DNA of 64,000 nucleotides from Tachypleus tridentatus. Lineage: Eukaryota > Arthropoda > Merostomata > Xiphosura > Limulidae. Location: contig NC_134831.1 in assembly GCF_004210375.1 (NCBI RefSeq), positions 2,232,001 to 2,296,000 of the forward strand, given 5' to 3'. A program made the position numbers and the translations under genes. Shown in pieces: positions 48,701 through 61,759 of the stretch. The number at the start of each line of letters is the position of its first letter. Positions within the stretch are counted from its first letter, which is position 1. The notes beneath the pieces are model-generated. The model did no database searches and was not told where the DNA came from. It saw nothing but the letters and a program-made list of their open reading frames with translations.

Positions 48701-51700
48701 GGGAGCGTTATAATGTGACATTCAATCTCACTATTCGTTGGTACAAGAGTTGACGGTGGGTTGTGATGATAAGTTGCCTTTCCTCTAGTCTTACAATACT
48801 AAATTAGGGACGGCTAGCGCAGATAGCCCTAGTGTAGCTTTGCGCGAATTTCAAGAAAACAAACAAATCTTAATTACATTTTTAACCAATTACTTTATCA
48901 GTAACTTTATAATTTCTAAAATAAATATTTTTTTGAGTAAATTATCTGTAAAGTATTATAAAATTATTATAAAATTAAGTAACTTCATATAAATCTCTTT
49001 CTTTCCCTCATACACACAGACGACCCAAACAAAGTCTTACTTCTCGCGGATTTGTCCAAGTCCCACAGCAAACGGGTAAAATTTGTTTGAAGTTTAGACT
49101 GACTAGAGAAAGACTGAAAGTATGTTCGAACCTCGTGGTCAACTTCCTTTAAAAAGCTTTCCATGCTATCATGTATTAACGCGCCCCACCTATCGGTGTC
49201 GTCATACAGCACAGCAATTCGATGCCAGTCAAAGACGTGAAAATATATCATGATGAAGTGGACCAGGCGTGATAAAACTATACCGTTTCTCAGTAGCGTA
49301 GAAAACAATATTTTGTCCAGGAATGTGACGTCCATTCCGCCCGCAGTGCATATCGGTGTTTTCCACGAGGCGGCCATTTTTGCCACAGGTTCCAATTCAG
49401 GCGAAGCACTGGGGCCAATGAAACAACTGACCTGCTGATTGCAGTGCTTTTGGGCTGCCAGCACCACTGCATGTGTGTCAATGCTAGTTGGAGATATATT
49501 GTATGAAGCTATTTCAAATTTTAAAGCCGGATATGTGGTCTGTGTTTTTTTCACAGCAATGTCTACCGCTGACTTTACAACATGATATTCATATTGTAAT
49601 TCTCCATCCATTTCAGTAAATATTCCCACAAATTTAAAGACCGCCTTGTTTGGGGCAATGCCTTCCATCTTTGGGGCCATCGTTTGTTCACTTCCGAACA
49701 GAGAACACGAAGTCAGAAATACGAGAACTGAACAGTAGGGTTTAATCATTTCCATGGTGTACTGCGTTTTTAGTCACATATGCAAAAATGACTATCCATC
49801 TATCTTAACTTTGTAGAGGTAAGGGCCATCCAGCTGTCTTAATCTTGTGTAGGCAAAGATCATTTCATTGGAACCGCCAAGTTATTTGTCTTTACGTTAG
49901 GTGCTTTATCTCTGTCTTTATATAACTTTCAGTTTCTCCGTATAAATCTCGACTTACATTATTTATAATATAGTACGCTAAAATAATGACGATAATAATG
50001 ATGCACGAAGAACAAGAGTTCTGAAATAGAATTATGGCCATTCTTACACTACTGGTACTTTACAGACAGTAGTTTATACAAGTATATATTCACACGTGTC
50101 TTGTAGATGGAAATGAATCAATAAAGGAAAACTTACATTAATTTAAATAATACCTTCCGGACTATTTGAAACAACGACACTGTAATACTATATCAAAGCG
50201 TTATTCAATTTGAATCAAACGGACAACTATTTTTGTCTTTGACTCAAGAACATATGACAGTTATATAGTGTAATTTTTCTAATGTATGGTAATATTTCTA
50301 CAAAATCAGATGAGGTATCATTCATGTTCCAAGAAAGAAACTTTTTTTTGGGAGGTATTTTCAGCTCGATCAGACCAGCTAAATTATTATATAGTTACAG
50401 GGTGATAGAGACTTTCATATTAAATGTCCAGTTTTATTACAGTTTGCGAGAAAATACAAAAAAAAATGTTTAACTTATTAGTAATCAAAAATTAACAAGG
50501 AACACGAATTAGCACTTCATCGATACAGCAAAACTGTAAGACTGAGTTATAGTGCTTGAAATTTAATAGTTTCATAGTATGCCTAAAATATACCGAAGTA
50601 TCATAAAGAAAGGATGTTTTTGTTCGGTTGAACATGCTTTTTTTGTTTACAAATAATAACAAATGCCTAATACATTTACAAATGTAATGTTGACTTACAC
50701 TTTATAGCAAAACTCGGAAAGGTATGTGACGCCCTCCATAATTTGAGCTAATAGCCAGATAGAACTAAGCTACCTGATAGCACTTACCAGCCACTACCCA
50801 TAATAAGGGATTGACTGTCACTATGTAACGCACTAACAGCTTAAAATGATGTGAAATGTTTTGTGATAGCGCATGTATTCGAACTACCCTCGCCAGCTTC
50901 AAAATCCAGAAAACTCAGCCATATGGCTAACTGCGCCATTAAAACTTTATTATTTACATTAACCAACTCTGGCGAGCGAAGCCAGACACAGTTCAATGTA
51001 AAAACTGTGTTATACATATTAAGCCATTCCTGTGTGTTAACTATCTAATATCAAGAATCTTCTGTCTGACCCTGGACGTATCTTCTCCTAAACGAGTTGA
51101 CTGATTCAGACCAGACTTATAATACTAACTTGTTAATCCAAAAGCAAACAAGCTTATTCTAAGCTTTCAAATAGATTAAATATACAAATATTTTATAGAT
51201 AGAAAATCACACCTCAACCAAATTCTTTAAGTGTAGGATTTTGAATAAAATTTCAGTAATTCGGCTTGTTTTTCACAATAGCTAGAATATCTAGATACGA
51301 TACGGGAACTGAAGACTGCTGTTTAAGTTTCCTGCTCTTTTCCGGGTTGGTTGTTTTGAAGTATAGGGGTGAAATGACGAGCATGTTTAGTGCGAGCGCC
51401 ATTCGAACCCGCGACACTGGGATTACGTGTCGAACGCCTTAACACGCGTGGCCATGTCGGGCTGTTGTTGTGGGTTCTACTAGGTTTAGAATAAGCGCTT
51501 AAGCGTGAATCAGAAGTAATGCATAACAATTATTTTTTAGGATATTCCTTACTTCTTGGTGTAGGTTTCTTCAGAAGAAAATTAAAAATTATTATTAAAT
51601 TTAATGCATTAAATGTACCAAATTCAGATAGTAGAAATCTTAACCATGTCTCTACTGCGAAATAGGCTGCTTTGAACAAAAAGTGACTAACTTCTTTACC

Positions 51701-61759: not shown

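Follow-up and report, generated by a model that had tools for sequence, protein, structure and literature searches.

Receptor guanylate cyclases and genes with variable first exons are each known; their combination is proposed here for a horseshoe crab gene. NPR-type receptors form dimers, and the ligand sits at the interface of the two subunits. NPR-A, NPR-B and the rat ANP receptor (1dp4) have the same order of domains as the horseshoe crab gene but, unlike NPR-A and NPR-B, the latter has four alternative N-terminal halves of the ectodomain. In terms of layout the gene resembles UGT1A, where variable first exons code for the substrate-facing part and are joined to one constant set; UGT1A, however, is an enzyme of drug metabolism and not a receptor. 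In the clustered protocadherins alpha and gamma, each variable first exon has a promoter of its own and codes for the ectodomain, and the cytoplasmic part comes from constant exons. These are adhesion molecules with many more variable exons, and each of them codes for a whole ectodomain plus the transmembrane part, as opposed to half an ectodomain in the horseshoe crab gene. Dscam swaps part of its ectodomain through mutually exclusive internal exons with acceptors, whereas in the horseshoe crab gene every variant exon comes with a start codon and a leader of its own.

Insect gustatory receptors are multi-helix membrane receptors. Also an arthropod receptor family, they were the nearest arthropod precedent found: PMC11302349 describes genes with tandem first exons 1A, 1B and sometimes 1C, 1D, followed by one common C-terminal exon. 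The common part is thus a single exon, as opposed to 21 common exons in the horseshoe crab gene, and the variable exon of the latter differs in that it codes for half an extracellular domain.

We propose, with a probability of roughly 0.8, that the locus is one NPR-type receptor guanylate cyclase gene with four alternative first exons that are spliced singly to a common exon 2. Each first exon would bring its own start codon, a hydrophobic leader and the N-terminal half of the ligand-binding ectodomain, and one at a time would be joined through its phase-1 donor to the common exon, most likely from one promoter per first exon. The predicted products would carry differing ligand-facing halves on one membrane-proximal ectodomain, transmembrane helix, kinase-homology domain and cyclase; we infer both the production of these isoforms and a difference in the ligands that they bind. 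The grounds are genomic, i.e. the anatomy of the locus, the match of phases, the single downstream set, the constraint on the first exons, their two lineages and the recurrence of the layout elsewhere. Should these isoforms be made, a single cGMP-producing receptor gene would face several ligands while its signalling output stays unchanged, which would be a route to a wider receptor repertoire, and chelicerate gene counts and single-isoform annotations may understate ligand diversity. If, in addition, co-expressed isoforms pair, four halves could yield ten dimers from one gene. A receptor guanylate cyclase with such a layout was not found in the open-licence literature, among the matches listed.

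Four first exons and one exon 2

The window, i.e. the whole stretch of 64,000 nucleotides of Tachypleus tridentatus that was analysed (C7:2232001-2296000), carries first exons 1A, 1B and 1C and common exons 2-21 on the minus strand (Table 1). Exons of the coagulin family, a hallmark of horseshoe crabs, gave 19 matches in this genome. The initial annotation had described three intact exons of the same orientation, each with a hydrophobic N-terminus and each ending in Ala-Arg plus one base at a GT donor. Their coordinates and frames were re-read and agree with this description: the frames of 1A, 1B and 1C are open and close as described, a hydrophobic stretch lies near each N-terminus, and Pfam ANF_receptor scores above the cut-off in all three. 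The count, on the other hand, had to be raised from three to four, as 1D lies beyond the end of the window; donor phase is identical in all four. The exons had also been assigned to the distal lobe of the ANF-receptor domain. The domain match stands but the term 'distal lobe' is loose, since in the alignment with the rat ANP receptor ectodomain (435 residues) exon 1 covers approximately the first 208, and its end near residue 208 makes it the N-terminal half.

Table 1. Features of the receptor guanylate cyclase locus (positions in the window unless prefixed by C7) and of four further loci (positions in Mb)
Feature	Position	Strand	Remarks
First exon 1A	49755..49041	-	ATG 49755, donor GT 49040, phase 1, 238 codons; Pfam match, pN/pS
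First exon 1B	54840..54171	-	ATG 54840, donor GT 54170, phase 1, 223 codons; Pfam match, pN/pS
First exon 1C	61759..61084	-	ATG 61759, donor GT 61083, phase 1, 225 codons; Pfam match, pN/pS
First exon 1D	C7:2297706-2298357 (window-equivalent 65706..66357)	-	1.7 kb beyond window; intact, phase-1 GT donor
Exon 2	45981..46147	-	acceptor AG just before 46147; donor aac|gtgcgg, phase 0
Exon 3, ectodomain	44601..44735	-	paralogue comparison, gene model
Exon 4, ectodomain	41017..41155	-	paralogue comparison, gene model
Exon 5, ectodomain	39385..39476	-	low splice-site score
Exon 6, juxtamembrane ectodomain	38754..38898	-	paralogue comparison, gene model
Exon 7, transmembrane segment	37970..38054	-	hydrophobic segment in translation
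Exon 8	33878..34013	-	paralogue comparison, gene model
Exon 9, start of kinase-homology region	31263..31337	-	paralogue comparison, gene model
Exon 10, kinase homology	29923..30000	-	paralogue comparison, gene model, Pfam
Exon 11, kinase homology	27499..27603	-	low splice-site score; Pfam
Exon 12, kinase homology	22182..22253	-	boundaries less certain
Exon 13, kinase homology	20724..20856	-	boundaries less certain
Exon 14, kinase homology	20043..20213	-	paralogue comparison, gene model
Exon 15, kinase homology	16961..17129	-	paralogue comparison, gene model
Exon 16, pre-cyclase linker	12061..12210	-	HNOBA match below cut-off
Exon 17, start of cyclase domain	9343..9466	-	paralogue comparison, gene model, Pfam
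Exon 18, cyclase domain	7877..7945	-	paralogue comparison, gene model, Pfam
Exon 19, cyclase domain	4808..4982	-	paralogue comparison, cyclase search, gene model
Exon 20, cyclase domain	4148..4246	-	paralogue comparison, gene model
Exon 21	705..796	-	paralogue comparison, gene model
Terminal exon 22	C7:2231137	-	just outside window; 36 residues
Locus C7:16.3	first exons 16.343, 16.393, 16.398		exon 2 16.425, cyclase 16.493
Locus C7:16.6	first exons 16.651, 16.631		exon 2 16.598, cyclase 16.518
Locus C13:236	first exons 236.262, 236.164		exon 2 236.125, cyclase 236.054
Locus C11:89	first exons 89.654, 89.650		exon 2 89.642, cyclase 89.604

An in-frame stop precedes the ATG by 7, 13, 14 and 33 codons in 1A, 1B, 1C and 1D, respectively, which fits the expectation for first coding exons. 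In all four an AG is present between this stop and the ATG, so that a noncoding exon might still exist further upstream. A scan for TATA plus initiator upstream of the four exons gave a match at 1A only, and between 53 and 98 of 500 shuffles contained at least one match, so that the outcome did not exceed that of the shuffles.

In 164 kb (C7:2222001-2386000), tblastn detected the four first exons and a single exon 2 (E 9e-39); a second exon 2 was not found there, the next-best matches being 14-residue stretches (E 0.18 and 0.29). This is in line with the earlier statement that there is only one compatible acceptor, that of exon 2 at 46147. The genome searches gave no further exon-2 or cyclase match on C7 within 2 Mb, among the matches listed. 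One could argue that each first exon heads a complete gene of a tandem array, the remaining exons of which lie elsewhere or were missed, as matches to the cyclase exon are plentiful in the genome (at least 41). However, the copies do not have downstream exons of their own in the stretches searched, and 1A to 1D all stand upstream of the single exon 2, on the same strand and with no runs of N, which makes such an array highly improbable.

As neither the window nor L010 contains N runs, the exon order there is no scaffold-gap artefact. Haplotype copies or mis-joined contigs might also have set foreign first exons before one exon 2: the assembly measures 2.17 Gb versus 1.72 and 1.94 Gb for two others of the species (Table 1 of PMC7815833), and near-identical duplicates are found elsewhere in it, e.g. 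at C9:20.38/20.49 Mb. Yet 1A to 1D are only about 27-53% identical in protein, hence no haplotype copies, and besides the uninterrupted sequence the layout recurs at other loci, so we regard an artefact of this kind as very unlikely. It is also conceivable that read-through into the intron ends some first exons and gives a secreted half-domain, since in genomic DNA the frames of 1A, 1B and 1C reach a stop a few codons past the donor. The phase-matched GT donors kept in 1A to 1D would be needless for such products, and we give this reading very little credence.

Two repeats were noted close to the first exons. A tandem repeat with units of about 78 bases (window 53815-54175) starts at the 1B donor; read on the minus strand, its units are similar to the donor region, and copies of the splice site may have multiplied. 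A minisatellite of nine 50-base units (47472-47920) lies in the intron that separates 1A from exon 2. A structure prediction for 1A, based on a three-row alignment, had a mean pLDDT of 36.9 and was not used.

The common exons and the predicted receptor

The closest paralogue of the gene is found on C13 (250.14-250.23 Mb, C13:250 in the following), where exon 2 (C13:250192872-250192705) is 79% and a cyclase exon 85% identical and the conserved exons are collinear with those of the window. Splice sites were chained with consistent phase, allowing GT-AG only. The resulting model has 20 common exons inside the window (exons 2-21) and a terminal exon 22 outside it, i.e. 21 in total; the boundaries of exons 12 and 13 are the least certain, and splice-site scores are lowest for exons 2, 5 and 11. 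The donor of exon 2 (aac|gtgcgg) deviates from the consensus. A broken donor near 45960 (gacag|ataagc) was considered for this exon and dropped, as the C13:250 paralogue puts the donor earlier. Up to exon 21 the model comprises 1042 (1A), 1027 (1B) and 1029 (1C) codons, to which the terminal exon adds 36 residues; the 1036, 1034 and 1049 codons of the initial annotation were not reproduced.

When isoform 1C is joined in silico, PF01094 is matched nearly end to end (2.3e-44, profile positions 3-352 of 353), and the ectodomain matches that of the rat ANP receptor (1dp4) at 8.5e-52. A kinase-like domain (PF07714, 2.4e-32) follows the single transmembrane segment of exon 7, and the class III cyclase domain is recognised by PF00211 (9.6e-62), with HNOBA just under the cut-off. 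Judged by its predicted domains, the downstream set encodes an NPR-type receptor guanylate cyclase.

Two further segments are common to the window and the C13:250 locus. About 1.6 kb of the window (35917-37494) are 87% identical to C13:250146731-250148327 in a non-collinear position, probably a common mobile element. A conserved noncoding block at 62364-62935, shared with C13:250212143-250212712, was considered as a positional clue for 1C and dropped; as more copies occur in L023, L024 and L027, it was treated as a repeat.

Constraint and descent of the first exons

The first exons are homologous. Synonymous differences between them are saturated, and pN stays well below pS: pS is 0.734 and pN 0.337 for 1A/1B, 0.773 and 0.358 for 1C/1D, and 0.783 and 0.232 for 1D and the first exon of C13:250, with the reservation that these comparisons are pairwise and that a recent lapse in the use of a single copy is invisible to them. 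In neutral simulations, run at half the observed distance, stop-free frames were obtained in 2 (from 1A), 17 (1B), 7 (1C) and 7 (1D) of 2000 runs each, and as synonymous sites are saturated the distances themselves are underestimated. Taken as comparisons of sequence, these values indicate that the first exons are under purifying selection.

A rather different picture is given by a 1A relative at C13:98115401-98116601 (L032), which is 47-69% identical in two pieces, contains three TGA and one TAG, and has no exon-2 match nearby. Its existence, as well as the single, 1D-like first exon of the C13:250 paralogue, could be taken to mean that 1A, 1B and 1C are unused leftovers of a tandem duplication of the first exon and that 1D alone makes the receptor. 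However, the actual orphan, the C13:98.1 Mb relic, is broken, while 1A to 1D show neither disabled frames nor a loss of constraint, and 1A to 1C have retained their leaders and phase-1 GT donors. The layout with several first exons also recurs at other loci. We consider the leftover explanation unlikely. A second orphan relic, a Gly-Gly-type first exon that runs across two overlapping frames, was noted on the minus strand at G000:C8:46545956-46546617, with no exon-2 or cyclase match nearby, among the matches listed.

Altogether 38 first exons were retrieved: four from this locus, one from C13:250, two from C11:89 and 31 from loci L028-L058. The tree contains 28 of them; left out were the relic L032, the copies L033, L037, L046, L053 and L057, L039 with a stop, L049 and L055 with broken frames, and the distant L058. 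In this tree 1A groups with 1B (support 100/100) and 1D with the first exon of C13:250 (100/99), and 1C joins the latter two (85/92). In the 40 kb searched at C13:250, nothing outside its one first exon, the sister of 1D, matched the other first exons at E 0.001. A single clade of 1A, 1B, 1C, 1D and the C13:250 exon is rejected (AU p = 0.0186), which means that the gene carries two first-exon lineages. Judging from the tree, the split of these lineages probably predates that between the window locus and C13:250. Placement of 1A/1B with the first exon of C8:155 gave AU p = 0.473, and the grouping of two first exons from the same locus gave AU p = 0.145 for the two Ala-Arg-type exons of C7:16.39 and AU p = 0.412 for the two of C11:89; at these values the three arrangements are neither favoured nor rejected.

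Recurrence of the layout at other loci

A phase-1 GT is present at the homologous place in all 33 of the 38 first exons whose donor was read, with the ends chosen by eye and four of the 33 being near-identical copies; the exon 1/exon 2 junction is thus an old feature of the family. Whole-genome searches gave at least 16 and at least 15 matches for exon 2, besides those for the cyclase exon. Four other loci share the layout, with three, two, two and two intact first exons, respectively, followed by a single exon 2 and a single cyclase, among the matches listed (Table 1). At C11:89 the sequence was read continuously for 15 kb, through both first exons and past exon 2, and nothing better than E 1.1 for exon 2 was found between the first exons; at C7:16.3, C7:16.6 and C13:236 the single exon 2 refers to the whole-genome searches, among the matches listed. 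Other relatives have a single first exon, e.g. C13:250, C8:50, C4:55 (twice) and C7:23, again among the matches listed.

This recurrence is an addition to the initial annotation. Its central proposal, that alternative first exons feed one guanylate cyclase, is strengthened by the single exon 2 and cyclase, the low pN against saturated pS and the four similar loci. It had named a second downstream set or orphan duplicates as what would speak against it, and the genome searches found neither at this locus.

At C7:16.3 and C13:236 a first exon of the Gly-Gly type lies upstream of one of the Ala-Arg type, and a pair in the same order is present at C9:20.3 Mb. The two types are divided by well-supported branches (100/98 and 99/98). 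In either type the members from C7 and C9 form a pair, and that from C13 falls outside it. Support for C7+C9 is 90/49 for one type and 96/96 for the second; with C13 added, the group of three has 94/88 and 81/67. The concordance suggests that the pair of first exons was duplicated as a linked unit. The C9:20.3-20.5 Mb region was not counted among the multi-exon loci because near-identical inverted copies leave its assembly ambiguous. Near-identical pairs of first exons were also seen as L033/L034, L036/L037, L046/L047, L052/L053 and L056/L057; these are probably unmerged haplotypes.

For horseshoe crabs, PMC7815833 proposes that the genome was duplicated in three rounds, and that a shared duplication took place in the common ancestor some 135 million years ago. 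We tentatively suggest, at somewhat less than even odds, that horseshoe crabs possess a variable-first-exon system of guanylate cyclase receptors, in which at least five genes would each have two to four ligand-binding halves, and that some of the pairs predate the copying of the loci, perhaps in the old genome duplications. The retained, deeply different pairs would then exemplify alternative first exons that stayed together through locus duplication. A different arrangement was seen on the plus strand of C8 (155.28-155.58 Mb), where one first exon and one exon 2 are accompanied by at least two cyclase exon matches 96 kb apart, perhaps as a result of partial gene duplication.
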